From the IMG/VR virus record IMGVR_UViG_3300011013_000014, positions 1-55,279 of that record: DNA of 55,279 nucleotides; one strand, given 5' to 3'. The notes beneath the pieces are model-generated. The model searched no databases. It was not told where the DNA came from and saw nothing but the letters and a program-made list of their open reading frames with translations. Of this stretch, positions 252 to 36,416 are shown piece by piece. Positions within the stretch are counted from its first letter, which is position 1, and each line of letters opens with the position of its first letter. This DNA is from a virus. Position numbers and translations under genes: made by a program.

Positions 252-836
252 ATGAAGAGCTGGCCTTTGACCGCGGACGAAGAGAGGGCGTTGCGTGCCC
301 ACCTGAATAAAAATATAGATTTAGAAGCTCTAATCACTAAGCATTCTAAGCACGTGGAAGGCACATTGGGCGTGCAGTCTACTCACAAAGCAATATGCCC
401 CAATAAAGAGCACAAGGGAGGAGAAGAGAGGACGCCGTCCTTTTTCTTTTCTACAGAAACAAACACATATAACTGCTTCGGTTGCCAGGTATACGGAGAC
501 GCATTTGACTTTATTAGCCTAGTTACTGGCCAGCCGGTACATATTGTTTTGGATGAGTACAAGCGAAAAGGCCCTTCTTTCTCTGATATAAAAGCACCGG
601 CTAGACCGAAGTTCAAGGTGAGAGATGTGGGTTATAAATTAGGCATCTCATTCAGGGAATATTTGAAAGCGCTAGAGGGCGCACCATTGCATTCTGCAGA
701 GGCAGAGTGGGTAGACAGTATGTTCCGGCGTATAGATGACAGGTTTTCGTGTCTTGAAGCAGATGATTACGAACAGGCCCTTAGTTTTGCTATGCAAATG
801 AATATGGAATTAGAAAGGAGACAAGAATGTTATTAG
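252..836 (+). CDS. DnaG-type primase, CHC2 zinc-binding half
   Basis: The 194-residue product carries a CHC2-type zinc-binding module: a CPNKEH motif, then about 20 residues on CFGC, followed by the GDAFDFI segment typical of DnaG (CFGCgkgGDvi). In DnaG primases this domain recognises the template initiation site. There is no RNA-polymerase/Toprim domain here, and the protein ends after a short helical tail. A matching Toprim protein lacking the zinc domain is encoded at 22584-23333, so the two probably make one primase in trans. The ORF can be extended to an ATG at 237, but the TAATATG at 252 mirrors the preceding gene. It overlaps the SbcD-like gene by ten bases. Confidence 0.75.
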   Translation: MKSWPLTADEERALRAHLNKNIDLEALITKHSKHVEGTLGVQSTHKAICPNKEHKGGEERTPSFFFSTETNTYNCFGCQVYGDAFDFISLVTGQPVHIVLDEYKRKGPSFSDIKAPARPKFKVRDVGYKLGISFREYLKALEGAPLHSAEAEWVDSMFRRIDDRFSCLEADDYEQALSFAMQMNMELERRQECY

Positions 837-2047
837 CAGTCATAGGAGACATGCATTATGGTGCAAATTACAATATGGGGCACACTCACCACAGGCAGCA
901 TATTAATACCAGGTTGCTTGATTACCATGAAACATTTTTAACAACCATAGATGAAATAACCGATGCAGGAGTGACCGCACTTGTACTCACTGGTGATATA
1001 TTCGAGCATCGTCGCCCTACATTAGTTCAGCAAAAGTTTTTCTCAAAGGCCCTCGCGTATGCATTTGCGTCAGGCATAAAAGACATCTATATAGTTATAG
1101 GCAACCATGATCAGCAGCGTATAAGCAGGACTAACACGCTTAGTTATTTGCAGGAGCTTAAACTAGGAAACCTACATATAGCAGACGAGCTAACGGGATT
1201 TACACTATCTCATGATGGGCAAGTATATGCAAACCTTATATTAATGCCTTATCGTGACAGAAAGTGGTATGGGGCAGATACTTATGATGAAGCACGAGCG
1301 TGCCTTAAAAAAGAATTAGATTATCACGTAAGAAGCATAGAGAATAATAGTCCCAAGATCTTAGTAGGGCATATGACCATTGAGGGCACCTTGCTTAGCG
1401 AGAGCCACCTTGATTTGAATTACGAGAATCAGCTTTATTTGCAAAAAGACATGTTCGGGGGTATAGATATTACTTTAATGGGGCATATACATGAGCCTGG
1501 CGTAATGTCCAAGGATCCTTACATAGCCTATGTAGGCTCTATGGAGAAGAGGAGTGGTCTTGAGGTAAACGACAAAGTTTACTGTATTGTTGACTTGGCC
1601 AAGGCCGAGGTCGATTTTCTCCCAGAGCCGTGCCGTAAAATATTCGATTTAAATATTGACTTCGGACACGTGGCTTTAGGTAAGGATTTGCATGACAAAA
1701 TACATGACCAAATAAGCAAAACAATAGATATTGACGGCTTGCCGGGAGCAATAATAAAGATATCTCTTAGAATTTCTGCTAGCGATAGCAAGTTTTGCGA
1801 CCTTAAAGAGCTAAGGTCGGAGATAATTGAACGATATAAAGTAAATAATTGTTTAGATATCATTCCTAATGTATTATCTCCTAGACAGGCAAGAGACGAT
1901 AGAATTACTGAAGGGATATCAGACATTGAGGCCTTCAAGCTATTCTTAGGCAATACTATAGATGAGCCAGAAAATAGGAAGAATATAGCCGCTATGGGGA
2001 TTGACATCATAAAGCAAATAGAGGGAGAACTAAATGTTGCCGATTAG
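827..2047 (+). CDS. sbcD: SbcD/Mre11-like nuclease subunit (T4 gp47 type)
   Basis: 406 residues opening with the calcineurin-type metallophosphatase motifs in order: GDMHYG (D8, H10), LTGDIFEHR, IGNHDQQ, VGHMT and MGHIHEPG. These bind two metal ions and cut DNA ends in Mre11, SbcD and T4 gp47. An AAAGGAG-type SD lies just before the ATG. The gene overlaps the SbcC-like gene downstream by 14 bases, the usual linkage of the two-subunit nuclease-ATPase. In T4 the pair resects ends for recombination-dependent replication and degrades host DNA. Length is close to SbcD. Assignment to the Mre11/SbcD family is secure; the exact role in this phage is inferred. Confidence 0.9.
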   Translation: MLLAVIGDMHYGANYNMGHTHHRQHINTRLLDYHETFLTTIDEITDAGVTALVLTGDIFEHRRPTLVQQKFFSKALAYAFASGIKDIYIVIGNHDQQRISRTNTLSYLQELKLGNLHIADELTGFTLSHDGQVYANLILMPYRDRKWYGADTYDEARACLKKELDYHVRSIENNSPKILVGHMTIEGTLLSESHLDLNYENQLYLQKDMFGGIDITLMGHIHEPGVMSKDPYIAYVGSMEKRSGLEVNDKVYCIVDLAKAEVDFLPEPCRKIFDLNIDFGHVALGKDLHDKIHDQISKTIDIDGLPGAIIKISLRISASDSKFCDLKELRSEIIERYKVNNCLDIIPNVLSPRQARDDRITEGISDIEAFKLFLGNTIDEPENRKNIAAMGIDIIKQIEGELNVAD

Positions 2048-4124
2048 TCTGCATATGAAGAACTTCCAGTCTCATATAGACTCAAAGCTGGAGTTTGACT
2101 TTAACTCTGCCCTTATAATGGGAACTAATGATGAGGACGAGAGGCTCTCAAACGGAACTGGCAAAAGTTCAATCTTAGAGGCTATAGGGTTCTGCATTCA
2201 TAATCAAACTAAAAATAAAAACAAAGATGATGTCGTGCGCAGAGGAGCGGTAACTGCCTGTGTTGAGATGATGTTTTCTCACAACGACAGGGTTTTTAGA
2301 GTAGTGAGAACCCACAATGTCAAAGTATCAAAGATGGAAGTTGAGTTTGAAGAGATTTTGCCAAATGGTGAGATAATAAACAAAACTCTAGACACTAATA
2401 CTCTGACTAACAAGGCCATCCAGAATACCATAGCTTCAAATTATAATGTATTTATAAGCTCTTCTTATTTTAGGCAGGGACTGGGATTTGATTTCGCTGA
2501 GGGAACATTTAGTTCTAGGCAAGAACTAATTAGTTCCTTACTTGATTTGGACAAATGGAAGGCTTATCAGGAAGAGGCAAAGAGGCAGTACAAGTTACGT
2601 TCTAAGCGGCTAGACGAACTTAAAATTGAGATAAATAAAAGAGGAATAACGCAGGAAAAGCTAGAGTCTGTTGGTACAGAGCTTGATTCTCTTAATAAAG
2701 AGAAAGCAGCGTCTGCGATTAAGAATGCAGCCTTAGTAGCCCAAATAAAAGATATTGAAAATAAGTTATCGGCCAATTCGGGAGCTGTAAAGAGCATTAG
2801 GAAATATAGGGACTTGGAGCAAGAAATAGCGTTTGTTAAGCGCAAGCTGGATACATCTAGAAACGAGATAGCTTCTTTGGCCGCTCAATCCAGCAAGTTA
2901 GATGATGATTTGGCAGAATTTAGCAGCGCTAAGAACTCCCTTTCTCTTCGTATGGCTGAGAACAAAGAGTTTCTTTCTGGCAGAGATCCAATTGATACAG
3001 ATGCGATGGAGCGCCAAATTATTGAAGGAAAGGCCAAGAGATCCTCAGTATCTAAACAGGTAGATAGCCTGCTCAATGATAAAGAGTGCCTGATGTGCGG
3101 TCATAGCTGGGATGACTTAGAAGCGAAAGACGTAGAAATATCGCGTCGTAAAGAATATTTGAAAAAAATAGAGAAAATGCTCGAACAGGCATTGAGTAGT
3201 TTTGCCACCGCTAAAGACTTTTTAAATAGCACGCAGTCTGCAGAGCTTGAAAGCCACAGACTCTCAAGCGATTACGCACAAGTTTCTGAGCGTATGGAGT
3301 ATTGCTACTTGCGCAAAAGCACCGTAGATTCTAACTTAGAAGGAGCCCAGGAGGCTCACAGCTCCCTTGTAAGCTCCTTGGAGCAATTAGAGGAGCGCCT
3401 TGAGGGCCTTGACGAGATAAGCGGCATAGACGATGTGGAGCCCCTAGAGAGCATGCTCACAGGCAGCCGCAAAGAGTTTGATGCCCTTAGAGAGGCGGGC
3501 GGTGACTTAGTATACAGGCTAGGTGTTTTGGCCGGGGAAAAAAATATTTTAATTGAAAGCATTGATAGCTACGGAGACCTGGATACTGAGTTAAAAGAGG
3601 CAAATGACGACGTGGCAACCCTGGGTCGCTTAACCAAGGTTTTTAGCAGAGACGGAGTCCCTGCTATAATCATAGACAATGTCATTGAGGAGCTAACTCG
3701 CACTATTAATGAGTGGTTACATGAGTTCTGCACAGAGCCTACTTATATACACTTTGTAACCCAAAAGAAAAACAATAAGGGAGACTGGCGTGAGACCCTA
3801 GATATTGAAATACATACTCCCAGTGGAGTGTGCATGTTTGAGTCTCTTAGCGGTGGAGAGAAATTTAGAGTTGGATTTGCCATCAGGCTAGCCCTAAGCA
3901 CCCTTCAGGCTCGCAGAATGGGCGGAGAAATGCAGATGTTATTGCTAGACGAGGTTAGTTCTAGCCTGGACATGGCGGGCCTGGATTCCTTTCTTGGAAT
4001 TATTCGTAAATTAGAAAAAGACATGAAAGTACTCGTAATCACACATGATGATAAGTTAAAAGATGAATTTGATACCGTGATTACGGTAAGAAAAAATGCT
4101 GAAGGTAGCAGAATTGAGAGATGA
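2034..4124 (+). CDS. sbcC: SbcC/Rad50-like ATPase subunit (T4 gp46 type)
   Basis: 696 residues with the split ABC ATPase layout of Rad50/SbcC. A Walker A (NGTGKSS) lies near residue 45. Long coiled-coil arms flank a CLMC zinc hook at about residue 355. The C-terminal lobe has the signature LSGGEKFRVG, Walker B LLLDEVSSSLD and the H-loop VITHDD. The protein is shorter than E. coli SbcC (over 1000 residues) and nearer T4 gp46, because the arms are short. It pairs with the overlapping SbcD-like gene to form the end-processing nuclease. All ATPase motifs look intact. Confidence 0.92.
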   Translation: MLPISLHMKNFQSHIDSKLEFDFNSALIMGTNDEDERLSNGTGKSSILEAIGFCIHNQTKNKNKDDVVRRGAVTACVEMMFSHNDRVFRVVRTHNVKVSKMEVEFEEILPNGEIINKTLDTNTLTNKAIQNTIASNYNVFISSSYFRQGLGFDFAEGTFSSRQELISSLLDLDKWKAYQEEAKRQYKLRSKRLDELKIEINKRGITQEKLESVGTELDSLNKEKAASAIKNAALVAQIKDIENKLSANSGAVKSIRKYRDLEQEIAFVKRKLDTSRNEIASLAAQSSKLDDDLAEFSSAKNSLSLRMAENKEFLSGRDPIDTDAMERQIIEGKAKRSSVSKQVDSLLNDKECLMCGHSWDDLEAKDVEISRRKEYLKKIEKMLEQALSSFATAKDFLNSTQSAELESHRLSSDYAQVSERMEYCYLRKSTVDSNLEGAQEAHSSLVSSLEQLEERLEGLDEISGIDDVEPLESMLTGSRKEFDALREAGGDLVYRLGVLAGEKNILIESIDSYGDLDTELKEANDDVATLGRLTKVFSRDGVPAIIIDNVIEELTRTINEWLHEFCTEPTYIHFVTQKKNNKGDWRETLDIEIHTPSGVCMFESLSGGEKFRVGFAIRLALSTLQARRMGGEMQMLLLDEVSSSLDMAGLDSFLGIIRKLEKDMKVLVITHDDKLKDEFDTVITVRKNAEGSRIER

Positions 4125-4545: not shown

Positions 4546-4846
4546 CTTAGAGTCTACGCTGGATGCCATTAAGAGCATAGGCTTTGTTGCTGCTTTGGAC
4601 CTGGCTTACAATGGCTCAATCGGCTTAATAAAGGAAGACAAGGATAGCACTCTGGCAACTAGGTTTTTATCTTGGAGCTACAACCTGTTATTAGACTCAA
4701 GAAAGGCTAAGAGTCACAAAGGTAGAGCGAGCGATTTACTACTATTGTCTAATTTTTATAGGCAGCTAGCACACAAGGTGTACTGGGTACAGAGAAAAAG
4801 AGGGAACATTGGTTTGATTAAAGATTTCATCCAAGTTATTGACTAA
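4508..4846 (+). CDS. unrecognised protein, 112 aa
   Basis: A basic, mostly helical protein with a Lys/Arg-rich centre (SRKAKSHKGR) that could contact nucleic acid. It has no other internal Met, so the start at 4508 is the only canonical choice even though it overlaps the previous gene by 38 bases in another frame. The stop overlaps the next ATG by one base (TAATG). No family was recognised. Confidence 0.6.
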   Translation: MQISTRYRIQESDLESTLDAIKSIGFVAALDLAYNGSIGLIKEDKDSTLATRFLSWSYNLLLDSRKAKSHKGRASDLLLLSNFYRQLAHKVYWVQRKRGNIGLIKDFIQVID

Positions 4847-5756: not shown

Positions 5757-6527
5757 ATGACAAAAAAGAATTCTAGTTTAACAGTTCTTAAACTAAGCGC
5801 TAGTGCTATCAAAACGTACGAAAGTTGCTCTCGAAAATATTACTATACTTATATCGATAGGCAGCCCAAGAAGGAATGGGCCCACCTAGAGCTTGGTAAT
5901 TTCGTACACGATGTGCTGGAGCATTTTCACAAAAAGGCGGTTTCTGCTCCCAGAGAGCAATGGGCCAGCTTAGTAGGCGAGCTTTGTGAGAGTATATCAA
6001 CAAAATATAATTTAATAGCCAAGGACGTTATTAGGGCCAGGGAAATGCTAATATGGTACTTGTCCATAGTATTTGAGCAGGGATTGCCACCTGTCTTGGC
6101 CAATGAGCAAAGTTTTAATATTCAGCTTGATGAGGGATTGGTGGTCCGCGGGTATATTGACCGAATAGATCAGCACTCCGAGGATGAGTTCGAGATAGTG
6201 GATTATAAAACGGGAAAATCTAAGTACTTAGACGACTTCCAGCTTTTAATATACGGACTTTATCTTCTCAATAAAGAGCCACATTTGGAGAGCTTTAAGG
6301 GATCCTATCTGGTCTTGGGAGAGGAAAAAGAAATATCATATAAGTTTACCAGAACAGATGTCGAGCGTTGTGTAGACAAAATAAAGCTAGTTGCCGATCG
6401 TATCCGGTCTGAAGTGAGCTGGGAGCCCAAGCCGCAGTTTCTTTGTCGTTTCTGTGATTTCAGAGCTATATGCCCTATAACTACTGATAAGAAGGCCACA
6501 GAGTGGGCCCAGCAGAGCACTCTTTAG
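5757..6527 (+). CDS. RecB/Cas4-family PD-(D/E)XK nuclease, probable Fe-S
   Basis: 256 residues of the PDDEXK_1 type. Motifs in order: SASAIKTYESCSRKYYY at the N-terminus, LGNFVHDVLEHF, GYIDRID, then EIVDYKTGK (the D...D-x-K catalytic core) followed by the Gln-containing motif DFQLLIYGLYLL. Cysteines at 24, 230, 233 and 239 (CRFCDFRAIC at the end) match the four-Cys arrangement that holds a 4Fe-4S cluster in AddB and Cas4. Family members are ssDNA exo- or endonucleases used in end processing, which suits the neighbouring SbcCD and RecA genes. No CRISPR or helicase partner is present. A strong terminator follows directly. Confidence 0.85.
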   Translation: MTKKNSSLTVLKLSASAIKTYESCSRKYYYTYIDRQPKKEWAHLELGNFVHDVLEHFHKKAVSAPREQWASLVGELCESISTKYNLIAKDVIRAREMLIWYLSIVFEQGLPPVLANEQSFNIQLDEGLVVRGYIDRIDQHSEDEFEIVDYKTGKSKYLDDFQLLIYGLYLLNKEPHLESFKGSYLVLGEEKEISYKFTRTDVERCVDKIKLVADRIRSEVSWEPKPQFLCRFCDFRAICPITTDKKATEWAQQSTL

Positions 6528-6575: not shown

Positions 6576-7397
6576 ATGTTAGATATAGTTAGTGGACAAG
6601 AAAATGGTAAGAAGTGGATTGCGGGCACGTTGCCCATGAAGCACAACATTACCTTAGAGATAGATACCAGGACGGGCAAGGGAGTGATTGACGTACTGAA
6701 CTACCTCAAGGACTTTGTTGGGTACCAGGCCTCGAAAATATTTTTACCAGCACACTCTGTAGAAGACACAATACAGGAAATTTATACAATAGCAATAATT
6801 GCCATTCCAGAATATGACGCATCTAAGTGCGCGAATCTATTGACGTTTTTGCAGAACCACATACGCAATCGTATAATAAATCTTTATAAATTTGTCACTG
6901 AGCAAAGAAGGACGGCCGTGTGGGGCTACTTTAGATTTTTTAAAATAAGATGTCCGGCCTGTAAGAAGTATTTTTTAGCAGATGAGCTGTCTGATGACAT
7001 GTTTTCATGCAAGACATGCGGGCATACTCGGCAGGGAGAGGAGCGGTGGAAGAAGTATCCCATATCTATAGGAGTCCTTTCTTCTAATGAGATGTTTGAA
7101 TTGCCAGATGGTAGCCACACAACCATACAGGACCATTTTTCCTACGAGGATCTCGGGCACTTGGTAGGCGTAGAAGATAAAATGTCGGAAGATTCTGTAT
7201 TGTCACGCTCCGCGATTTTTTCTATAATCAAAAATTATGATGAATTCACACAGGCTGTTGCTAATATGATCATAGAAGGATATAATGTGTCTGAAATAGG
7301 AAGAGAGCTAGATGTGTCTAGCGCCAAAGTCAAGGCCAGATTGAATAAATTGTCAAAAAACAAGGGTTTAAGGGAGATTTTCCTTACACATAGGTGA
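6576..7397 (+). CDS. sigma-70-like factor with zinc-ribbon insertion
   Basis: 273 residues with an SD AGGTGATAA directly upstream of the ATG. Residues about 60-107 resemble sigma region 2: DTIQEIY, then IPEYDAS, then FLQNHIRNRIINLYK, the pattern of ECF and phage sigma factors. A zinc ribbon follows (C126, C129, C145, C148). The last 60 residues form a region-4-like helix-turn-helix (YNVSEIGRELDVSSAKVKARL). The zinc ribbon between regions 2 and 4 is unusual. The likely role is redirecting host RNA polymerase to phage middle or late promoters, as T4 gp55 does. Core binding and promoter preference are inferred. Confidence 0.65.
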   Translation: MLDIVSGQENGKKWIAGTLPMKHNITLEIDTRTGKGVIDVLNYLKDFVGYQASKIFLPAHSVEDTIQEIYTIAIIAIPEYDASKCANLLTFLQNHIRNRIINLYKFVTEQRRTAVWGYFRFFKIRCPACKKYFLADELSDDMFSCKTCGHTRQGEERWKKYPISIGVLSSNEMFELPDGSHTTIQDHFSYEDLGHLVGVEDKMSEDSVLSRSAIFSIIKNYDEFTQAVANMIIEGYNVSEIGRELDVSSAKVKARLNKLSKNKGLREIFLTHR

Positions 7398-7401
7398 TGC
7401 A

Positions 7402-10400
7402 ATGCTTGCTGGAGCAGTAGTAAAAAGTATTTCTAATAATATAAATAAGTACGCTGAAAGTTTTAGGAATACTGGAGATCTTAAGTGGTTCTTGCGTTAC
7501 GCGCAAGAAGCTAGTTTGTATCGAAAGTTTACCAAGGCAAAACGAGTCAAGGACGACTTTTTTGTACCTCTCAACATAGATGATTTTTTGGGATTGCTTA
7601 AAGATGCCGCTGAAGTGCCTTCTGGCGACGAAGTCCAGGACTCACTTAATCAGCTAGTTGCAAGCGCATTATTGCGTCATTATGTTGATTTTGATGGAGC
7701 GGCACCAGCGTTCAAAACATACAATATGGGGCCCATTGCTGACACCTTGTCAGATCCTTTGCTGGTGCAGGACAATGATGATTTTGACAACGTTCGCACC
7801 CTATTTTTAAACAAGGTGAGCGATCCAGACGCTGACTTATCGGACGAGATAAAAGAAGTATTTGTTAGCATAGCTCGCAACGAAGAGCAGCTCCGAAATG
7901 CAATAGACTTCGTACTAACAGTAGCTTATCTGAATGCGTATAGCTATGTGGTTTATAGCAACCCCATACTCACCGTGCTGGACCCCGATCAGGTTTTAGC
8001 AGAGTCTCTTACCAAGACAGCCGCGGGCCCTAGTAAGCAGGACTTAAAGAGGCGTACGCCTAGTAAACGTGGTCCCAGGCTCAGCGACCTGCTAAATGCT
8101 GTACGCATAACAAGTGGAAAATTTGCACTGTCTTTAAGAAACACCATGAGGCAGATTGATGCTTACAGCAAACAAGGCATCCCAACCCCTTCTGCATTGG
8201 TCAGGCAGCATGATGAGTTGCTTAAAAATATCACATACTTGGATGCTTACATTGATTATCTTACGCGTCTAAAGAACGATCTACAGACCTTTATGACCTC
8301 TAACATTGAGAATCCTTATTTGAAGTATGGCGGGGGAGCAAGAGACTATATCACTGATAACCCACTGGTACGATCTGGTATTAAAAATGTTGAAAAGCTC
8401 GGCGACCTATTTCGTGCCCCTACTCCTAAAAAACTATTTGAAGTTGACGGGTGGGACGGGGCGAAGGTAAAATTCAGCCAGTTTGGCCTGCCGCAAAACT
8501 TATTTCATAAGCACTATGCTGCAAAAATGGGAGATCCTTCTTATCAAAAAGATATGGCGTCCAGTTTGTCTGACAATGCCCGGTTGGCTCAGGGCTATTT
8601 TAAAAATAGCAGATTCTCCTCGCGTTTAGAGGAACTAAAGTCCGTCATGCCAGGCGCTCCCTCTGCTCAGTTGGTAGATATATATGATGATATAAGCAAA
8701 CAATTATCTGCCTCCGTGCCGAATTTGTCTTCTGACCTAGAAGGAGAAGGCCTGGATGATTCTGGCGTGGGAGTTATTGAGAGTTATGAATCAGACATGG
8801 CTGAGTCTACCAGCAAGGCCAAGGCACTATTGGGCGAAAAATACGCTGCACAGGTAGGAGAAAACAAGGGTCGCTTTAATGATTTTTTAGATAAAATCAT
8901 AATACAGGATGCTTTACCACTTACTCCATTGGATTTAAAAGGACTTAGCGGTACGTTGTGGCCCAGCCCGGCAAAGTCTAAAAATGTAATTACAGAAACA
9001 TCAAAAAATATATTTCCAGTTTTGCATGATGTGTTAGACTCTGGCCAGTTCAGGCAGAATTATATTCAGAACGAATCAGACATGATAGTCTATGAGGAAG
9101 AGCATGCTGGTGGGGCGCCAAGCCAATTAGAGCATGAAATTGACAAGCATAAGAAGGAAATAAGCAAGGCACCCATTCTAAGAGATGAGATCGGCATCAT
9201 TAATTTACCAGTTGATAGCGTCGCATCGTACAAGGAATCGTTTGGAAATATGATTAATGACATTCTTTTTAATAACTGGGACCACACCAAGTCTATGTTG
9301 GACATGACAGACATTCCCGTGCAGGCGCTTTACGCATATCTTGGCGACCAATATATGGCGGTTGTAGGTACTGACATGGCGTGCAAAATAGCTTGTCAGT
9401 TTGGCGGCGCGCGTGAAAAGGCCGCTTACCAAGAAGAGGTAGAAGAGATAAGTACGACCTTTGGCGGAGGAAGAGAGGAATGCATGTGTTTTAATAAGCG
9501 CCCTCCTAATCCCGCTGCTTATGAAGAGGCCCAGTACTTCGTTAATGATTTAGCTCAACCACGTGAAAAAAAGAGGACTACGGCTCGGCATGCAGATAAG
9601 GCATTGGCGCAAAGAACTGTGCCTGGTATGTTGGAATACTGGCACAAGGACCCAAGTTTAAAATCTAGAGATGCGAGCAGGCCGAACTTGGCAGCTGTAA
9701 TTAGCAAGGGAGCTCAATCAGCTTTTGGGGCTCACATAAGGGATAACGGTCATAAGTTTGTTAAGGCCTTATTTATACAGAATAAGGAGCTAAGAGACGC
9801 TGCAATTAGGGCAGGAAAGAAATTAGACTGGGACGACCCTTCTAACCCGCTTCCTACTTCGCTACCCGAGTTAGCACATGTTACTGGCGCTTTTGCAGAC
9901 CCAATTCCTTCTTCTGCTAAAAAAGCAGGGCGCTTTGAAGGACGGCCGGACGAGGCTATGGATGTAGTTCCGGATGATGATATGTACATAGAAGGAATGG
10001 ATACGGCCAGTAATCATTTGAAAAGATTAATAGAGAGCGGGGCTATATTTGGCCTTGGCACTTCCGGCGCTATCAATCCTGTGCGTGAAATAAGAGAGGG
10101 ATTTTTTCAAAGAAAGCAAAAAATCATAAATGATGATGAGCGTTACGAAGAGTATATCGTTCCATACGATATAGAGAATAGAGAGACTGATAATCCTCGA
10201 AAGTATGATATTAAGGCTTCAGAAGTGCAGAGCGGTACGGACTTAGGTGCACCATTTGATGGAGAAGTTTCTTCCAAGTCAGACGCCGAAGCGCTTATAC
10301 GCGGGTTGTCAGATGACTTGCTTGAACCAGCTGTTAAATTGCAAATTATACAATTTATAAACAGGTCTTACCCCAGCAATGAGGATGTTGCCTATGCTAA

Positions 10401-11199
10401 CAATGCTAGTCTTGCTAAAGCACTAGCTCCGCTGGGAGCGTTTATCAATATAGAGCCAATTCTTAGCGAGCTAGGGCACCCTGACAGCGCCCCTACTGCA
10501 GGATTGCCAGGCGCACTAACTGGGTACTTGTCAGACATCACAAATGCAGTACGTAGCGTTTCACAGATTGTCAAGCGAAACCCATCAAGCGATATAGAGT
10601 CTTTGCAAAAAGACATTTACGAGCTAGAAGGCGGACGAGCTAGCTTAGGCGTATTGCTTGATCGGGCTACTGACTTCGGAGAGTCTGAGCTTGAAGAAAT
10701 AAGAGAGGATATTATCAGCCTAAACAAGGCTGCAGAACAGGCAGCATTTGTTTTAGATCAGTGGAAAAACATATATCAGCAATTAGGACAAATGGAGCAA
10801 AAACAAGATCAAGCGGGCCCTTTGAACCTTTTGGAAACTATTTTAAATGTTATTCAAGACCCTTCGTTTCATATAGCTGACGTACTCCCTGCTGACCAAA
10901 TTGGGGCGCGACTTGATTTGCAGTTGGCAGTCGAAGACGTGGCGGAATCTATTAGTGCGGGACGGTTTAGCGATGAGATGTTACCCGTACTTGCTCCACA
11001 ATTCGCAAAAGTAGTACAAGACATCAGGGAGGCCATAGGTGCTCAAAGACTAACTAGAGAATATGTGGCCGGACTTGTATCGTCCTTTAAGAGTATTAAG
11101 AACTATGCTGACACTGAACATGATCAGGGTTCTTATATGTTCGATGAAGATGATGTAGATGATAATTACACTAACGATAAGTATTATTCATTGCAGTAG
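7402..11199 (+). CDS. large unrecognised protein, 1265 aa
   Basis: The largest gene in the left half, with an AGGTGATG SD overlapping the end of the sigma-like gene. No catalytic motif or known fold was recognised. It is soluble and mostly helical with long polar stretches. There is a Cys cluster near residue 690 (ECMC) and an acidic C-terminus (MFDEDDVDDNY). A KTAAG sequence near residue 210 resembles the KTAS tetrapeptides of the virion candidates further right. Size and lack of enzyme motifs suggest a virion or injected protein, yet it sits among replication genes just before the trigger factor, so it could be a client of that chaperone. Function unknown. Confidence 0.75.
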   Translation: MLAGAVVKSISNNINKYAESFRNTGDLKWFLRYAQEASLYRKFTKAKRVKDDFFVPLNIDDFLGLLKDAAEVPSGDEVQDSLNQLVASALLRHYVDFDGAAPAFKTYNMGPIADTLSDPLLVQDNDDFDNVRTLFLNKVSDPDADLSDEIKEVFVSIARNEEQLRNAIDFVLTVAYLNAYSYVVYSNPILTVLDPDQVLAESLTKTAAGPSKQDLKRRTPSKRGPRLSDLLNAVRITSGKFALSLRNTMRQIDAYSKQGIPTPSALVRQHDELLKNITYLDAYIDYLTRLKNDLQTFMTSNIENPYLKYGGGARDYITDNPLVRSGIKNVEKLGDLFRAPTPKKLFEVDGWDGAKVKFSQFGLPQNLFHKHYAAKMGDPSYQKDMASSLSDNARLAQGYFKNSRFSSRLEELKSVMPGAPSAQLVDIYDDISKQLSASVPNLSSDLEGEGLDDSGVGVIESYESDMAESTSKAKALLGEKYAAQVGENKGRFNDFLDKIIIQDALPLTPLDLKGLSGTLWPSPAKSKNVITETSKNIFPVLHDVLDSGQFRQNYIQNESDMIVYEEEHAGGAPSQLEHEIDKHKKEISKAPILRDEIGIINLPVDSVASYKESFGNMINDILFNNWDHTKSMLDMTDIPVQALYAYLGDQYMAVVGTDMACKIACQFGGAREKAAYQEEVEEISTTFGGGREECMCFNKRPPNPAAYEEAQYFVNDLAQPREKKRTTARHADKALAQRTVPGMLEYWHKDPSLKSRDASRPNLAAVISKGAQSAFGAHIRDNGHKFVKALFIQNKELRDAAIRAGKKLDWDDPSNPLPTSLPELAHVTGAFADPIPSSAKKAGRFEGRPDEAMDVVPDDDMYIEGMDTASNHLKRLIESGAIFGLGTSGAINPVREIREGFFQRKQKIINDDERYEEYIVPYDIENRETDNPRKYDIKASEVQSGTDLGAPFDGEVSSKSDAEALIRGLSDDLLEPAVKLQIIQFINRSYPSNEDVAYANNASLAKALAPLGAFINIEPILSELGHPDSAPTAGLPGALTGYLSDITNAVRSVSQIVKRNPSSDIESLQKDIYELEGGRASLGVLLDRATDFGESELEEIREDIISLNKAAEQAAFVLDQWKNIYQQLGQMEQKQDQAGPLNLLETILNVIQDPSFHIADVLPADQIGARLDLQLAVEDVAESISAGRFSDEMLPVLAPQFAKVVQDIREAIGAQRLTREYVAGLVSSFKSIKNYADTEHDQGSYMFDEDDVDDNYTNDKYYSLQ

Positions 11200-11213: not shown

Positions 11214-12503
11214 ATGAAAATAGAAGTAGAAGATACCGGCGGGCTTAGTCGCCGGATAAGCTTCGCAGTGCCAAAAGCCAAGGTGGAAGCAGAATGGGCT
11301 TCTTTCCTTGATGAGGTGCGCTCTAAAGTAGATGTTCCCGGGTTTAGAAAGGGAAAGGCTACTGATGAGGCACTTCAAGCGAAGCTGGGAGACGTGGCTC
11401 GCGCCGAAGTCTCTGGCAGGTTGATTTATAACGCAGTTGTGGACTCGATGCGCGATGAGGAGCTTCCCATTGTGGGCTCTCCTGTCCTTGTCGAATCTGA
11501 CCGAGCAACTGATAAGAGAAAATTCGCTGGTCACTTTAAGCTTGACGGTTCGTTCGAGTTTGCGGCTGATGTAGAATATGAGCCAGAACTGGACGTTACT
11601 GATTACATGGGTGTTGATGTCGTAGGAAAAATGCCTACGTCTGATGACTGGGTAGTAGAGCGTCTTGCTGAATACCAAGACACATTCGCAGAGCGAAATG
11701 AAGTTGAGCGTTCAATTCAGGTCAATGACGAGATAATCATTGATTTCGAGGGTTTTATCGGCGAGGAAACTGTGCCCAACAGCCGTGGTGATTACCAAAC
11801 GATGCTAGTTGGCCAAGGCGGGTTCATTCCTGGTTTTGAAGATGCACTGATAGGCAAGGTGGCAAATGAGCCATTCAGCTTTGATGTCACTTTTCCAGCG
11901 AATTACAAGTCCGAGGATATTGCAGGAAAGGAGGTGAATTTCAAATGTTTTATCCATTCAGTTACAGAAGTAACTGCACATCCTATCAATGATGAGCTTG
12001 CTCAGATGGTATCGTTCGATGATTTAAATGCTTTAAAGGCCGACTTGGCTAGTAAAGTAAGTGATGAGTTCGAAAAGCCTATAAAGGCTAAATTATTCGA
12101 ACAAATCATCAATCATGTAATCATTAAGAACCCATTCATTGTTCCCAATGCATGGGTAGAGTCAGAGACCGGAGTTACAGCGCAAAGATTAGGCATGAAA
12201 GAAATGCCTACAGACCCTGCTGTGATTGATAGTTTGAAGGAAGTGGCCAAGAGAGTAGTGCAGCAGAATTTTATCTTAGATAAAGTGTACGAAAAAGAAG
12301 AGAGCATTCATTTGACTCCAGACGACATTCATGCGTTTCTAGCAGAAGAAGCAAATCGTTTGGACAAGGATGTGGAATATTTGTTGTCACACCTGCGTAA
12401 CTCGGGACAGTATGAGGGCTTCATATCTTTTCAAGAGCACCAGCGTACTATTGATTTCTTATTAAACAATGCTAACTTCACAGAGGAGGTTACTGATGGC
12501 TGA
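11214..12503 (+). CDS. tig: trigger factor (ribosome-associated chaperone/PPIase)
   Basis: 429 residues, full length for trigger factor (E. coli 432). The N-terminal ribosome-binding domain starts in register with bacterial Tig and carries the signature GFRKGKA at residues 43-49; the usual Pro after it is replaced (KAT instead of KvP). The FKBP-type PPIase domain (about 150-245) is clear: VNDEIIIDFEGFI, then GQGGFIPGFEDALIG, then DVTFPANY and KEVNFKCFIHSV. The remaining residues form the helical substrate-binding arms. Arg codons are mostly CGN, unlike the AGR-rich upstream genes, which suggests high expression or host origin. The next small gene overlaps its stop. Confidence 0.93.
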   Translation: MKIEVEDTGGLSRRISFAVPKAKVEAEWASFLDEVRSKVDVPGFRKGKATDEALQAKLGDVARAEVSGRLIYNAVVDSMRDEELPIVGSPVLVESDRATDKRKFAGHFKLDGSFEFAADVEYEPELDVTDYMGVDVVGKMPTSDDWVVERLAEYQDTFAERNEVERSIQVNDEIIIDFEGFIGEETVPNSRGDYQTMLVGQGGFIPGFEDALIGKVANEPFSFDVTFPANYKSEDIAGKEVNFKCFIHSVTEVTAHPINDELAQMVSFDDLNALKADLASKVSDEFEKPIKAKLFEQIINHVIIKNPFIVPNAWVESETGVTAQRLGMKEMPTDPAVIDSLKEVAKRVVQQNFILDKVYEKEESIHLTPDDIHAFLAEEANRLDKDVEYLLSHLRNSGQYEGFISFQEHQRTIDFLLNNANFTEEVTDG

Positions 12504-12714
12504 AAACACTGTTGTCCCAGTCTTTGGGTTCAAAATTCGTAAATTTACCGCTCTTCCTGGCAAGGGAGAGGAAGACATGGGCAAGATCCAGTTTATCTTA
12601 GAGGCACCTAAGGACGAGCTGCGTTCTACCGAACATGATGTTAATGACATTTTGGGAGCGATGAACATGCATCACTCCACGCAGGAGCCAATCTCAGTGC
12701 ATCTCCGGTTCTAG
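12496..12714 (+). CDS. unrecognised 72-aa protein coupled to trigger factor
   Basis: The start is the ATG at 12496, preceded by a strong AGAGGAGG SD inside the trigger-factor gene; it overlaps that gene's stop by eight bases, so translation is coupled. A longer in-frame ORF begins at 12469 but lacks an SD. The product is a compact, mixed alpha/beta protein without recognised motifs (starts MAENTVVPVF, ends SVHLRF). Strict coupling to the chaperone is the only functional hint. A terminator follows. Confidence 0.7.
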   Translation: MAENTVVPVFGFKIRKFTALPGKGEEDMGKIQFILEAPKDELRSTEHDVNDILGAMNMHHSTQEPISVHLRF

Positions 12715-12778: not shown

Positions 12779-13114
12779 ATGGAATCAGTTCAATTAAAAA
12801 CAGTACTAAAGCATTATCCCCTTAGCAGGTGTGCTACGTGTGATAGCCACGAATACATACTTCCGTTTCCCATAACAGGCGCTATTACTGACTTTTTGGT
12901 GGTTTTCGGGGAGCTAAAATATCCGGTCCCAAAGATAAGTCTGATAAAGATTTCAAATCCGCACATCCAGTTAAATAGCAAAGTAGGAACTAATAAAATA
13001 CGTATTAAGTTCAAAAAAGACCCCGAGAAAAGAGGGCTGTTCGAAATACAGTTGGCGGCCTATATATCCAAACACATGAGTGTGATCGTAACAACTGATG
13101 GCACCCTAAAATAA
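12779..13114 (+). CDS. unrecognised protein, 111 aa
   Basis: A basic, beta-rich small protein with CATC near residue 18 and a Lys-rich second half (KIRIKFKKDPEK). It is preceded by GGGGGCGAG and ends 21 bases before the polymerase gene. No family recognised. Position suggests a polymerase accessory factor, but nothing in the sequence shows it. Confidence 0.55.
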   Translation: MESVQLKTVLKHYPLSRCATCDSHEYILPFPITGAITDFLVVFGELKYPVPKISLIKISNPHIQLNSKVGTNKIRIKFKKDPEKRGLFEIQLAAYISKHMSVIVTTDGTLK

Positions 13115-13135: not shown

Positions 13136-16100
13136 ATGTCATTCGTAAATCTACATGGGCATAGTTGTTACTCCGTGCTTGATGCTATCATTCCTATTAA
13201 GGAAATGTTTGAGCGCGTCAATGAATTGGGACAAAAAGCCGTTGCTATTACAGACCATGGAAATATGGCCTCAATGCATGAGGCGTATGGATTATACAAG
13301 CAATACAAGAAGGACGGAAGTTCATTCAAATTCATTCCAGGAAATGAGATTTACTTTGTAGAAGACTTAGAAGACAAGAAGGCCAAGAGAAGGCATCTAG
13401 TATTATTGGCGGCAAATGAAGAGGGATATAAGAACCTGCTTAGCATAACAGCTGAGGGCTATCTCAATGCTGTTACCGTAATGAATAGGCAATTCCCGCG
13501 TGTCACTGCTGATATTTTAAAGAAGTACAATAGGGGATTATTTGCCACTTCTGCCTGTGGCGGGTCACTCATAGCTGCTGCAATATGGGAGGGAGACCGA
13601 CAGAAGGCCCTTGACGCTGCCACGGTTTTTAAGAACATATTCGGCAACAGGTTTTTTATTGAGTTACAACCGCACGACCTCCATAGGGGTGACTTCAACC
13701 AGGGGGCTCTTAATGATCAAATTAAAACCGTGGCGGAAGAGTTAGACATTCAAATGATAGCCACTTGTGACTCTCATTACCTAACACCCAAGCATGAGCG
13801 ATACCACGATATGGTTCTTGCCATTTCTTCTAAGAAGGCTCTTGACGATCCTAAACGCCATAGGTACGCCAGTGTCGAACCATGTATTGTTTGCGCAGGC
13901 ACTAAGGTTTTTCCTCTTGACTCAGATACGGCGTGTGACCGGTGCATGGGGACTGGTTTGGGAAAAATAAAGCAGTGTGCGGAATTCTACCTAAAAACAG
14001 AACAAGAAATGTACGGCTATTTTGCCAAGAGGTATAATTCTGGATTCGCTAAACAATTAATAAATAACACGTCCATCATTAGCGACGCATGCGACCCGCC
14101 CGATTATATGGAGCCAGGGGAGTACAGACTTCCTATTTTTCCATGGCAAGATGAGGGTGACGCAAGCGAGTTTCGATCTTGGAGAGAAAATAAAGAAACC
14201 CTAGAGGGGCTGGCTGATGACGCCGCCTATTTGCGTTTTAAATCCTGGAAGGCCATGAAGGTATATTGTCGTGGTTTTGATAAAGATAAAATAATGGTAT
14301 ATTGGCAGCGCCTAAATAAAGAGTTAGAGATTTTAGAGGCCAGGAGCTTCAGCTCATATATCCTTATAGTTGCAGACTTTGTTAACTGGGCAAAAAATAA
14401 TGGCGTTCGGGTAGGGCCGGGGCGAGGCAGCGGCGCAGGCTCTCTAGTGGGATATTTTATGGGCATTCACGATGTAGATTCCATCAAATATAAGCTTCTT
14501 TTCGAAAGATTTCAGAGCCGATTAAGGCCAGACCCGCCCGATTATGACATTGATTTTGCGCCTTCCGGGAGGGATCGCGTTATTGATTATTGCAGGAGTA
14601 AGTACGGGCGTATGCATGTTGCGCAGATATCCAATGTCTTGCGTTTGACGCCAAAATTGGTTATAAAGGACGTATCTCGATCGTTACAGCTTGGAGGAGA
14701 TAAAAGCTCTGCTTTTAAAATTGCCAACGAGGTGACCTCAACTGTGAAAGACGAGATCGTAAAGGGTAACAAAAAGATAAAAGTAGACGATATGTCTACG
14801 GCCTTGGATTCTTCCAGAAGGTTGCGTGAGTTTGTAATAGAGTACCCAGAGGTACTAGATTATAGTAAGAACATTGTAGGGCTTCCAAAGACATTTGCCA
14901 CTCATGCTGGGGGGCTTGTAATATCAGATATTCCGCTAAATGAATATATTCCTCTTCGTTGTGATAAGGCGGGCAGTTTAATAACTCAGTACGACAAGGA
15001 CGCGTGTGAGGATGTCAAGCTAGTAAAGATGGACTTCTTGGCAACTGAAGTTTTAGATGTGATATCTGAGACTATTGAGTTAGCTTCTGGTATTGGAATA
15101 GGTGTGGCTGATACAAAAAACATGCCATTAGACGATAGCAACACTTACAGGCTAATTGCCACTGGGTACTTAGCAGGTGTGTTTCAGCTTGCAGGGAGCC
15201 TGACCTCTCTTTGCAAAGCAATAAAGCCCAGGAATATATATGATATTGCGCTAATTAATGCTCTGGGTCGGCCGAATTGCTCTCCAAAGGAAAGGGCTGA
15301 CTTTATTGCTCGTAGATTCGGCAAGCAAAAAACCACATATACTCATCCTGCATTGGAGCCTGTTCTTAAAGAGACGCTCGGCATTCCTATCTTTGATGAA
15401 GACTTGTTGCGGATAGCTAATCACGTGGCTGGATGGGACCTTTCCAAGGCTGATGGTTTGAGAAAGCTCACGAAGTTAAAAAGCAAGGGAGAGGCCCTGG
15501 CGGACAAGTTAGAAAAAGACTTTATTTCCGATACGGTATCAGTATCCAAGATAAGCAAAGACGATGCCACTACTATGTGGAACGATGTAGTGGTCCCATT
15601 TACCAAGTACGGATTTAATCTTAGCCACGCCATAGCTTACAGCATGATATCATACTATACTGCATATTACAAAGTGCACGCAACCGCTCCGTTTCTTTGT
15701 GCAGCTCTAAATAAAGAGACGCGGGGAAATAAACAAAATAGAAGCGAGCAGATAGACATACTTAAGCGAGACTGTAAGAGATTCAAAATAAGCATCAGAA
15801 CTTGTGATATTAACAAAAGCAAGCAGTACTATACAGTGCAAGATAAAAGCACTATTATTACTGGCCTAGGTGCAATTAAGGGAATAGGAGACAAGGCTCT
15901 TGATGCCATTATTTCTCATCAGCCATACGCTTCTTTTGCAGATTTTCTACATAGAACACCCTCTAGGACTGTCAGCAAGTCAGTAGTTATTGCCCTTGCC
16001 CAGGCTGGTGCTTTTGATAGTTTCGGCATTTCGAGAAAGTATGCAGCCACCCAATATGACAAGGTTCGTAAGATTATAATAAAAGACTTGAAGGCACTGA

Positions 16101-16651
16101 CCAAGAAGTTTGAAAGCGAGATCATGGTGGCTTCTGTAGGCGATGGTTATGGCCCGGATGAGTCACTGTACGCATTAGAGAAAGATTATTTAGTTAATTT
16201 CGTATACAGCCTAACGGGAGAGCACAAGGAAGAGTGGTCTTTACAAGAGAGGCTATCTGGAGAGAAGACAGTATTGGGCGAGTATCTGTCCGGCTCAGCA
16301 GAGGACATTTTCCCAGGTTTTTTTAAGGGAGGTATTTATGGTCAGTCATTTGTTAGAATTGCTAAGTCTCCAGACGGTGTTAATTTTAATATGGAAGGCT
16401 TAATTGTATCTATTAGAGAGATAGCTATTAAGAAGCCAGGAAGAAACCTGGGCAAGCTTATGGCTAAATTAAATGTGGAAAACCTCAGGGGAGAGACGGT
16501 AGACGTTACCCTGTGGCCCCAGGATTACAGTAAGTTCAAAAGGTTTTTGGGTGTGGGCATCCCTATTCGAGGATTATTCAAAGTGAATGAATATAATGGT
16601 TCAAAATCATTAGTGATGTTAAACTTAGAAGCTATATACAGAGAGAGTTAA
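13136..16651 (+). CDS. dnaE: DNA polymerase III alpha subunit (DnaE type)
   Basis: 1171 residues, close to bacterial DnaE; SD AGAGGT. The N-terminal PHP domain keeps metal ligands (HGHSCYS with H7 and H9, ITDHGNM, GNEIYF, CDSHYL). Between PHP motifs there is an insert with CIVC, CDRCMGTG and a further Cys that looks like a zinc finger of DnaJ type. The C-family palm has GPGRGSGAGSLVGY and the catalytic DPPDYDIDF near residue 468, then THAGGLVIS, KMDFL and FNLSHAIAYSMISYYTAY. A C-terminal OB-like region ends the protein. It would be the phage replicative polymerase. No epsilon exonuclease gene was found, so the intact PHP domain may proofread. Confidence 0.95.
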   Translation: MSFVNLHGHSCYSVLDAIIPIKEMFERVNELGQKAVAITDHGNMASMHEAYGLYKQYKKDGSSFKFIPGNEIYFVEDLEDKKAKRRHLVLLAANEEGYKNLLSITAEGYLNAVTVMNRQFPRVTADILKKYNRGLFATSACGGSLIAAAIWEGDRQKALDAATVFKNIFGNRFFIELQPHDLHRGDFNQGALNDQIKTVAEELDIQMIATCDSHYLTPKHERYHDMVLAISSKKALDDPKRHRYASVEPCIVCAGTKVFPLDSDTACDRCMGTGLGKIKQCAEFYLKTEQEMYGYFAKRYNSGFAKQLINNTSIISDACDPPDYMEPGEYRLPIFPWQDEGDASEFRSWRENKETLEGLADDAAYLRFKSWKAMKVYCRGFDKDKIMVYWQRLNKELEILEARSFSSYILIVADFVNWAKNNGVRVGPGRGSGAGSLVGYFMGIHDVDSIKYKLLFERFQSRLRPDPPDYDIDFAPSGRDRVIDYCRSKYGRMHVAQISNVLRLTPKLVIKDVSRSLQLGGDKSSAFKIANEVTSTVKDEIVKGNKKIKVDDMSTALDSSRRLREFVIEYPEVLDYSKNIVGLPKTFATHAGGLVISDIPLNEYIPLRCDKAGSLITQYDKDACEDVKLVKMDFLATEVLDVISETIELASGIGIGVADTKNMPLDDSNTYRLIATGYLAGVFQLAGSLTSLCKAIKPRNIYDIALINALGRPNCSPKERADFIARRFGKQKTTYTHPALEPVLKETLGIPIFDEDLLRIANHVAGWDLSKADGLRKLTKLKSKGEALADKLEKDFISDTVSVSKISKDDATTMWNDVVVPFTKYGFNLSHAIAYSMISYYTAYYKVHATAPFLCAALNKETRGNKQNRSEQIDILKRDCKRFKISIRTCDINKSKQYYTVQDKSTIITGLGAIKGIGDKALDAIISHQPYASFADFLHRTPSRTVSKSVVIALAQAGAFDSFGISRKYAATQYDKVRKIIIKDLKALTKKFESEIMVASVGDGYGPDESLYALEKDYLVNFVYSLTGEHKEEWSLQERLSGEKTVLGEYLSGSAEDIFPGFFKGGIYGQSFVRIAKSPDGVNFNMEGLIVSIREIAIKKPGRNLGKLMAKLNVENLRGETVDVTLWPQDYSKFKRFLGVGIPIRGLFKVNEYNGSKSLVMLNLEAIYRES

Positions 16652-34095: not shown

Positions 34096-34578
34096 GTGGA
34101 AAGTGCAATATATCATATATTGGATGAAAAGGATAGAGAGCATATAGGTTCGGCAGTTAATTTTACTAAAAAAAAGGGCGCTCACTTAACTCTCTTGCGG
34201 AATAATAGACATTATAATCCAAAATTGCAAAATGCCTTCAACAAATACGGTGAAGGTTTTTTTGTATTCGAACCTATAGTTTATTGTGAAAAAGAAGATC
34301 TATTAGGGACTGAACAAGTACTAATCGACAATCTTGAGCTTCATTACAATATAGCAAAATGTACCACAGCACCAATGATGGGGCGAAAACATACAAAGGA
34401 AGCTATTGCTAAGAGTACTAAGCGCGGTAAAGATCACTCCTGGCTTGGTCGGGCGCATACAGATGAGACTAAAGCGAAAGCAGCTCGTGAGTCTGGAGTA
34501 AGCGCTTCTTGCATTACTTGTGTTTGTAGAGGTAAAGTGATATCCTCCGGTGGATTTGGATTGAGGTACATAACATGA
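34096..34578 (+). CDS. GIY-YIG homing endonuclease, degenerate active site
   Basis: 160 residues from GTG 34096 with AGGTGAT at optimal spacing. The GIY-YIG domain aligns with I-TevI: AIYHILD for GIY, EHIGSA for YVGSA, LQNAFNKYGE, TEQ and HYNIA. The Tyr of the second motif is His, and the Arg that aligns with I-TevI R27 is Lys (NFTKKKGAH), so catalysis may be lost. NUMOD3-like repeats follow (GRKHTKEAIAK, GRAHTDETKAK), then a DNA-binding tail. It sits directly before the terminase gene and overlaps its start by four bases. Confidence 0.8.
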   Translation: MESAIYHILDEKDREHIGSAVNFTKKKGAHLTLLRNNRHYNPKLQNAFNKYGEGFFVFEPIVYCEKEDLLGTEQVLIDNLELHYNIAKCTTAPMMGRKHTKEAIAKSTKRGKDHSWLGRAHTDETKAKAARESGVSASCITCVCRGKVISSGGFGLRYIT

Positions 34579-36416
34579 GTAATGTTTCTTTGAAAGCAAA
34601 GCCGGATGCGCATCTTGATCTTTTTAAAGATTTAAAAAAGGAGCTTGCGGTTCTTGATCCCGTGGCGTTTGCCGAAAACCATTTAATGATAGACGGGAAG
34701 CCGTTTAATATGACTGGTACGGGCTGGAAGTTTATGACAGATGTTTATCGCGAGATAGCAGCGCAGGCAAGCAGCAAAGATGCCAAGCCAATTGTAATCC
34801 TCAAATCACGCCAGATAGGCGCCACATTGCTCGCTGCTGTGCTTTCCTTGTACTTTACAGCATCTGGGCTTTATGGGTCTGTGCACGGAAGGCCGCCTAT
34901 TCGTGTGCTACATGTTTTCCCAACCCTAGGGCTTATGGGCAAATATTCTAAAGATAAATTGAGCACGCTAATATCTAGCTCACAAGAAAACTTTATTGAA
35001 AAGAGAGCGGCCCATAATGATCCTGACTTAAAAAGAACAACTCCGGAGGATACGCTTACTGAAAAAACTTTTGCTGGCGGTAATAAGTTAAGAATTGATT
35101 CTCTTGGTCGCGATGCTGATCGCTTGCGTGGCCTATCCGAGGATGTACTGTTTTTTGATGAAATTCAAGATATGGGGCAAATAGCAGTTGAGACGGCCTT
35201 GCGAGTATTGACCATGGCCCAGTATGGACCTCCAGGGCAGGGGGTGCAGCTGTATTTCGGCACTCCTAAAAACACGGGTTCCTATTTTTGGGAGCTATGG
35301 AATATTTCTGATCAGCGGTTCTACCAGTTGCGCTGTACTGACTGCGGCCATTATTTCTTTTTTTACACATTGGGAAATGATGAATGGCGCACAATCTGGA
35401 TTGAGGGTTTTATTATTCAGTGCCCGGAGTGTGGTCACAGACAGGATAAGAAGGACGCTATCGAGGGCGGTCGTTGGGAAGCTACGAAGCCTGGCAAGGA
35501 CAAGTATGTGGGTTACCACATGAATGTGTTGTTAAATCCTATATTTACCAAGGAAGCGGTATTAGACTTGGACCCCAATGTTAATCCTACTCGTAGTCAC
35601 CGTGCTTGGCATAATGAGACTATGGGCGACTTTTTTAGTAGCTCTAACATGACCGTGTCCTTTGAAGATTTGCGAGCTACTTGTTTGAATCCAGAACGAG
35701 GCTTGGCTCGCAGGGTCCGCAATGACAAAGATAAAGTTTATATAATGGGAATTGACTGGGGCGATAAGATTGAGGCCGAAGATGATGATGGCGGGAAGGG
35801 CAAATCTTATACCGTAATAGTTATTCTTTCCTTTGATAAGCGAGGATTTTTTACTGTTGAGAACGCTTGGAAGTTACCTAAAAATGATTTTGAGTATAAA
35901 ATTGAGGTAATAGAGCATTTGTTTCGTATGTTTAAGATCCGTGTTTGTGTAGCGGATTATATGTGGGGAAATGATGTAGTTACTCATATGCAGACGGCAT
36001 TAGATTACGGTACTAAGTTTTTAGGGTGTATTAATAGTGGAAATGTGGGTAGTACTCTGACTTATAAGCCCAAGCAACTACAAGTAACTCTGAATAAAGA
36101 TCTAATGCTGGATGAAGTATTTTCTATGATGAAGAAAGGAAAGGTACAATTCCCCGCTAAAGATGATTCTTACGACCGTATTGAGTGGCTTTTAAGGCAT
36201 TGTGCATCAATGGAAATAACAGTTGCTAAGCGCCACGGTAGTCCGGTAAAGAAATACGTAAAAGGCATAGGGCCTAATGACGGCTTGATGGCCCTTATGT
36301 ATGCACTGGTAGCATATAAGTTTATAGCAACTAATGGTTTTAAGGGCTTGTCTAGCAGCAAGGCTGACGGGCAGCGGCCAATGCCTTCGGTTGCATATAT
36401 ACCAGGAATGAGGTAA
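34575..36416 (+). CDS. terL: terminase large subunit
   Basis: 613 residues, SD GAGGT. The ATPase half has a variant Walker A (KSRQIGAT at 77-84) and Walker B with catalytic Glu (VLFFDEIQD near residue 192). A zinc ribbon (CTDC near 253, CPEC near 282) is inserted between the ATPase and nuclease halves, as in GpA-type enzymes. The RNase H-like nuclease starts at IMGIDWGD near 390, with a further Asp in VCVADYMWG and PNDGLMALMYAL towards the end. It powers DNA translocation into proheads and cuts the concatemer. The portal gene follows immediately. Confidence 0.93.
   Translation: MSNVSLKAKPDAHLDLFKDLKKELAVLDPVAFAENHLMIDGKPFNMTGTGWKFMTDVYREIAAQASSKDAKPIVILKSRQIGATLLAAVLSLYFTASGLYGSVHGRPPIRVLHVFPTLGLMGKYSKDKLSTLISSSQENFIEKRAAHNDPDLKRTTPEDTLTEKTFAGGNKLRIDSLGRDADRLRGLSEDVLFFDEIQDMGQIAVETALRVLTMAQYGPPGQGVQLYFGTPKNTGSYFWELWNISDQRFYQLRCTDCGHYFFFYTLGNDEWRTIWIEGFIIQCPECGHRQDKKDAIEGGRWEATKPGKDKYVGYHMNVLLNPIFTKEAVLDLDPNVNPTRSHRAWHNETMGDFFSSSNMTVSFEDLRATCLNPERGLARRVRNDKDKVYIMGIDWGDKIEAEDDDGGKGKSYTVIVILSFDKRGFFTVENAWKLPKNDFEYKIEVIEHLFRMFKIRVCVADYMWGNDVVTHMQTALDYGTKFLGCINSGNVGSTLTYKPKQLQVTLNKDLMLDEVFSMMKKGKVQFPAKDDSYDRIEWLLRHCASMEITVAKRHGSPVKKYVKGIGPNDGLMALMYALVAYKFIATNGFKGLSSSKADGQRPMPSVAYIPGMR

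Follow-up and report, generated by a model that had tools for sequence, protein, structure and literature searches.

A Complete Trigger Factor Encoded at the Replication Locus of a Clade of Uncultivated Tailed Phages

Introduction

Do large phages control co-translational folding in their hosts as well as initiation? Ribosomal proteins, tRNAs, and GroES-like helpers have all been described in phage genomes, and the stretch of DNA analyzed here (the window, an entire IMG/VR virus record of 55,279 bp) makes this question testable through a gene for a ribosome-associated chaperone, the trigger factor (TF). It has to be established that this gene is a TF, that it belongs to a phage, how it is distributed and inherited, and what the phage protein is likely to do.

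A study of huge phages lists phage bS21, L7/L12, S1, S4, IF1, and IF3 (PMC7162821), and a phage peptide deformylase, known from cyanophages, figures there in the title of a work in the reference list. Trigger factor is unmentioned in the main text of that paper and of two others (PMC9723584, PMC13157829), and according to a study of the Southern Ocean virome, its viral proteins included no detectable analogs of trigger factor (PMC8407431). No report of a phage TF and no cultured phage with one was found in the open-access literature and collections searched, although annotation tables may contain earlier mentions. An earlier note on this DNA knew of no common phage TF, and the phage collections and papers that we searched agree with it, contaminants apart.

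Results

The window gene encodes a complete trigger factor

The TF gene begins with ATG, and a Shine-Dalgarno-like GAGG site lies 5 nt upstream. Its product scored 251.6 bits (E = 1.2e-74) against the TIGR00115 "tig" equivalog, for which the cut-off is 180.2 bits, and the Pfam scores for Trigger_N (78.3 bits), FKBP_C (35.5 bits), and Trigger_C (53.0 bits) all exceeded the gathering scores. Residues 1–427 align with residues 1–422 of E. coli TF (phmmer, 1w26, E = 1.2e-33). GFRKGK, the docking loop, keeps the residue numbers of E. coli F44, R45, and K46, and the residues aligned with F168, I195, F198, F217, Y221, and F233 of the E. coli PPIase pocket are identical in the window TF.

The AlphaFold2 model, built from an input alignment of 20 phage TFs, had a pLDDT of 89 and a pTM of 0.63, so the domain arrangement is less sure than the fold of the parts. 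The best PDB match of the model was E. coli TF 1w26 (Foldseek, E = 6.5e-26), 2vrh was also matched, and the predicted structure resembles ribosome-bound E. coli TF. The earlier note described a TF complete from end to end and proposed checking it with profiles and a structure prediction; the profiles, the alignment, and the model all agree with that description. The window gene is a bona fide, complete trigger factor, and its product looks, from its sequence, competent for ribosome binding.

Two details that the earlier note had taken as signs of adaptation or recent acquisition did not hold up. The ratio of CGN to other arginine codons is 13:5 in the TF gene versus 455:399 elsewhere in the window, and this bias is not significant (p = 0.15); by codon usage the gene is unremarkable within the window (rank 11 of 26), and its GC content is typical. 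Approximately one-third of the sampled phage TFs have T, S, or N after GFRxGK in place of the proline that is missing in the window TF, and S or T occurs at this position in bacterial TFs too. A promoter and terminator scan around the TF gene gave matches at no more than chance frequency, or close to it.

Table 1. Positions of the trigger factor, its parts, and other genes in the window
Feature	Position	Strand	Remarks
SbcD-like subunit	827..2047	+	PHROG 100
SbcC-like subunit	2034..4124	+	PHROG 77, 1.5e-75
PDDEXK/Cas4-like exonuclease	5757..6527	+	Pfam PDDEXK_1, 1.3e-34; bait for the TF-independent census
Sigma-70-like factor	6576..7397	+	Pfam Sigma70_r2; PHROG 1740
1265-aa fast-evolving protein	7402..11199	+	upstream of TF
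Phage trigger factor (TF), 429 aa	11214..12503	+	N domain, FKBP-type PPIase domain, C-terminal arms
GFRKGK ribosome-docking signature	11340..11357	+	residues 43–48; alignment to E. coli TF
PPIase (FKBP) domain	11661..11972	+	about residues 150–253
C-terminal chaperone arms	11973..12488	+	about residues 254–425; Trigger_C
72-aa protein	12496..12714	+	overlaps TF by 8 nt; GAGGAGG at 12483–12489
111-aa protein between TF and DnaE	12779..13114	+	conserved in relatives
DNA polymerase III alpha (DnaE)	13136..16651	+	Pfam DNA_pol3_alpha, 1.9e-71; right-hand border of the TF cassette
Terminase large subunit	34575..36416	+	PHROG 675, 4.4e-63; Pfam GpA_ATPase
Portal protein, probable internal intein	36422..39562	+	PHROG 16240; LAGLIDADG_3 and Intein_splicing inside
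Large protein with head-maturation-protease segment	46546..50541	+	PHROG 18299

The contig is viral

Nearly all genes of the window lie on one strand, and they include, besides those in Table 1, a UvsX/RecA-like recombinase, SSB, and primase (Pfam/PHROG). Neither clpP nor clpX was found beside the window TF. The presence of genes for terminase, portal, head protease, and phage replication shows that the window is no piece of host chromosome; these viral genes contradict the alternative that the earlier note had named, and the TF is encoded by a genuine phage.

Several other features of the contig were observed. In the portal gene (1046 aa), portal matches flank the LAGLIDADG_3/Intein_splicing segment (residues ~397–739), and unusually long DnaE or exonuclease ORFs in relatives (e.g., L190, L192, and L220) may also hold inteins. 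A homing-endonuclease-like gene (NUMOD3; 34096–34578) directly precedes the terminase gene, and pieces related to it are located between TF and DnaE in relatives (L185). The sigma-70-like factor consists of region 2, a weak zinc-ribbon-like match at residues 123–150, and then a region 4-like C terminus; it is syntenic in the nearest relatives and was not detected in the jumbo clade. A CCA-adding/poly(A) polymerase-like nucleotidyltransferase is encoded at 30715–31467, and no tRNA genes were found in the window. The gene w4846 (4846–5742), with a chitobiase C-terminal/Fn3-associated domain, is conserved across the whole clade within the SbcCD-exonuclease-TF-DnaE block.

TF is located in a conserved cassette of large phages

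When viral contigs were scanned with single proteins, either TF or the 1265-aa protein, no match was obtained, and TF loci were found only afterwards with degenerate alignment patterns. This alignment-based scan yielded 63 TF loci. TF lies inside the cassette SbcD-SbcC-w4846-exonuclease-(sigma)-TF-...-DnaE in 49 of them, on contigs of up to 480 kb, and the remaining 14 are without the cassette, several of these carrying clpPX or lon. The scan used the GFR motif; hence, a second census was performed with the neighboring exonuclease alone as bait, and it gave 61 distinct loci with exonuclease and DnaE, of which 40 have TF and 21 do not. No TF was found elsewhere in the TF-less records that were checked (0/23). 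The nearest relatives of the window are L220, L227, and L179, and the terminase relatives G002 and G003 (contigs of 54–60 kb) are members of the TF-less sister clade, with other genes in the TF slot. TF almost certainly belongs to the core genes of its tailed phages, which form a large and uncultivated clade. One phage contig of 372 kb (G018:C1) carries two different TF genes, at 93448–94719 and 186910–188109.

Public collections gave a different picture. Among 50,697 phage records, TF was detected only as apparent bacterial contamination, which was demonstrated for the records opened: three phage-labelled records (L003, which is CAKLQH020000005.1, L002, and L004) are bacterial chromosome with the order tig-clpP-clpX. 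TF matches in a collection of plasmids were set aside since they look bacterial-chromosomal, many being chromosome-sized records, and a search of predicted structures of viral proteins yielded no TF. PHROG 26774, labelled as having "unknown function", is a TF family listed among phage proteins. Bacterial TFs fit it much better (347–436 bits) than TFs of the phage clade (71–205 bits), so it probably consists of bacterial or prophage-flank sequences and not of this lineage, and it was rejected as a known phage TF family.

TF has one origin and descends with the replication genes

On a phage tree built from the exonuclease and w4846, the presence of TF changes exactly once, dividing 68 loci with TF from 28 without (support 100). 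Distances among TFs correlate with those among DnaE proteins (Mantel r = 0.951; none of 999 permutations reached this value), and of the 41 TF splits with good support, 26 are also found with good support for DnaE. TF arose once in the phage tree and has been passed on vertically together with the replication genes, and it was apparently never lost afterwards across the 68 sampled phage loci.

Phage and bacterial TFs fall on opposite sides of one branch (support 99/97), as they did in an earlier, larger tree; the bacterial sequences came from seven named phyla, with Bacteroidota, Cyanobacteria, and Actinomycetota among those left out. The tree with host phyla proposed in the earlier note thus sets the phage TFs apart from these seven phyla and points to no donor phylum. 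Between close pairs of phage TFs, dN/dS is 0.05–0.13, and TF in close relatives is under strong purifying selection. The vertical inheritance with DnaE, the separation from bacterial TFs, and the codon usage and GC content typical of the genome argue together against recent capture, and the recent acquisition suggested in the earlier note is therefore rejected in favor of a vertically inherited clade core gene.

Docking and chaperone domains are kept, and the PPIase domain erodes

Pfam domains were compared across 43 TFs, comprising the window TF and 42 from the exonuclease census. Trigger_N was recognized in 43, Trigger_C in 42, and FKBP_C in 20. No census TF lacks G[FY]R, and these loci had been selected by exonuclease, not by motif; among the sampled phage TFs, G43, R45, and G47 are invariant, and position 44 is F or Y. 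The mean identity of the PPIase domain is 0.27 among phages versus 0.43 among bacteria, and for the N and C domains the mean identity among phages is approximately that among bacteria. This pattern of retention and identity indicates constraint on docking and on the chaperone arms. Isomerase activity, judged by these sequences, looks dispensable in part of the phage lineage, and the window TF itself retains the full set of PPIase pocket residues.

Phage TFs are nearly all full length. A shortened segment of the C-terminal arm is common to nearly all of them, including the window TF: the P311–A345 span mostly comprises 30–38 residues, with outliers of 14 and 62, versus 37–51 in bacteria.

Genes adjoining TF

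The gene for the 72-aa protein follows TF directly in the window, and its homologs do so in L179, L220, L227, L008, L011, L012, and L194. The coupling of TF to this gene, proposed in the earlier note, is supported by the overlap, the strong Shine-Dalgarno site (GAGGAGG), and the homologs in the same place. The 72-aa protein had no Pfam, PHROG, or PDB fold match, and its model had a pLDDT of 72.

The 1265-aa protein had been called an orphan, with TF as its possible folding helper. It has homologs of 1294–1810 aa in the same slot in L179, L220, and L227 (blastp, 22–23% identity, E = 1e-15 to 1e-30) and is therefore not an orphan. In most TF-bearing phages, an exonuclease or sigma gene adjoins TF with no giant gene there, and some TF-less sisters have a giant gene in the slot. 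As TF is common without a giant neighbor and the reverse is also seen, TF is not tied to the 1265-aa protein, and the helper role proposed for it finds no support in these arrangements. Giant genes are also located between sigma and DnaE at L097:8201–15106 (~2300 aa) and L180:11532–19628 (2698 aa); no known domains were found on a scan of the L097 gene, and the 1265-aa protein of the window may be a diverged counterpart.

TF co-occurs with phage bS21 and peptide deformylase

A phage bS21 gene is present in 28 of 33 TF-bearing records versus 0 of 23 in the TF-less sister clade, and peptide deformylase in 16 of 20 TF-bearing versus 2 of 5 TF-less sister records. In many jumbo contigs both genes precede TF, deformylase by ~9–11 kb and bS21 by ~12–15 kb, and in the nearest relatives of the window bS21 lies 15.07 kb upstream. 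Neither gene is in the 55-kb window, and the distance of bS21 in the relatives falls beyond its left end. The association of TF with bS21 is one phylogenetic event, that is, one independent pair and not independent statistical evidence, so it reflects co-inheritance and not repeated co-selection. GroES, considered as a regular partner of phage TF, was rejected as sporadic (4 of 20).

Discussion

The phage TF is probably a ribosome-docked chaperone of nascent chains. From the conserved anatomy of the protein, we infer docking, protection of clients, and competition with host TF. The phage TF would be made during infection along with the replication genes and would use its GFR loop to dock at L23 of the host 50S subunit, either beside host TF or in its place, where it would cradle nascent phage polypeptides emerging from the exit tunnel. 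The phage deformylase would act on these chains too, by trimming them, and phage bS21 would influence which messages the 30S subunit initiates; host ribosomes would thereby be refitted by all three for phage proteins. Prolyl isomerization appears secondary because about half of the lineage has an eroded PPIase domain. That TF usually occurs with a phage bS21 and with a further enzyme of the ribosome exit suggests that these viruses refit the protein factory of the host. A stronger version, nearly as likely as not, is that TF, deformylase, and bS21 form a ribosome-directed set that the whole clade has carried since a single ancient event and that makes host ribosomes phage-specialized from initiation through to the folding of nascent chains, with phage TF replacing host TF at the exit port. 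That the TF-less sister clade manages without TF counts against the chaperone reading.

Displacement of host Tig by phage TF, raised in the earlier note, is possible. As a full explanation, it would mean that phage TF occupies L23, keeps the ribosome clear of host TF and of other factors that act at the exit site, and disturbs host protein folding or targeting while folding little itself. The complete retention of the N-terminal docking domain (43/43), with G[FY]R universal and a PPIase domain that erodes, would fit such a blocker. However, a pure blocker needs the N domain only, and these proteins are nearly all full length, with the C-terminal chaperone domain kept in 42 of 43 and diverging about as much as in bacteria, and we consider this explanation unlikely. 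It is similarly improbable that phage TF works mainly off the ribosome as a dedicated assembly chaperone for the 1265-aa protein or for virion subunits. The T. maritima TF, found with S7, acts off the ribosome in complex assembly, and TF is closely linked to the 1265-aa gene in the window, L179, L220, and L227; nevertheless, most TF-bearing phages have no large gene beside TF, giant genes occupy that slot in some TF-less sisters, and the ribosome loop is universally kept. Both explanations fit the retention pattern less well than a docked chaperone does.

The finding could also be an artefact, either host chromosomal contamination or the chance recent capture of a host gene, and the phage-labelled TF matches in the public collection do include clear bacterial contaminants with tig-clpP-clpX. 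In this lineage, however, the same phage cassette recurs in dozens of independent contigs with no clpPX adjoining, and TF is inherited vertically with DnaE, has phage codon usage, and forms a clade apart from bacterial TFs, which makes an artefact very hard to credit.

A ribosome-associated chaperone as a phage core gene is new relative to the collections and papers searched. The TF-bearing and TF-less sister clades, which share the same gene order, constitute a natural experiment, and the naturally PPIase-eroded TFs offer a means to separate the docking, holdase, and isomerase functions.

Among known systems, the closest is bacterial TF (TIGR00115; E. coli Tig, 1w26), which the window TF resembles in domain order, GFRKGK, pocket residues, and fold. 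Phage TFs differ from it in their location at a phage replication locus, their separate clade, their shorter C-terminal arm segment, and a PPIase domain that is unrecognizable in about half of the lineage (23/43). The bS21 of huge phages (PMC7162821, PMC9723584) is, like phage TF, a phage gene product aimed at the host ribosome, but it acts in initiation, whereas TF works on nascent chains where they leave the 50S subunit, at the exit port. Phage peptide deformylase shares with TF the nascent chain as its object and the ribosome exit region as its place, but it is an enzyme and not a chaperone. GroES/Cpn10-type co-chaperones are likewise phage-borne folding helpers; in contrast to phage TF, they are post-translational partners of GroEL, and they are sporadic in this clade.
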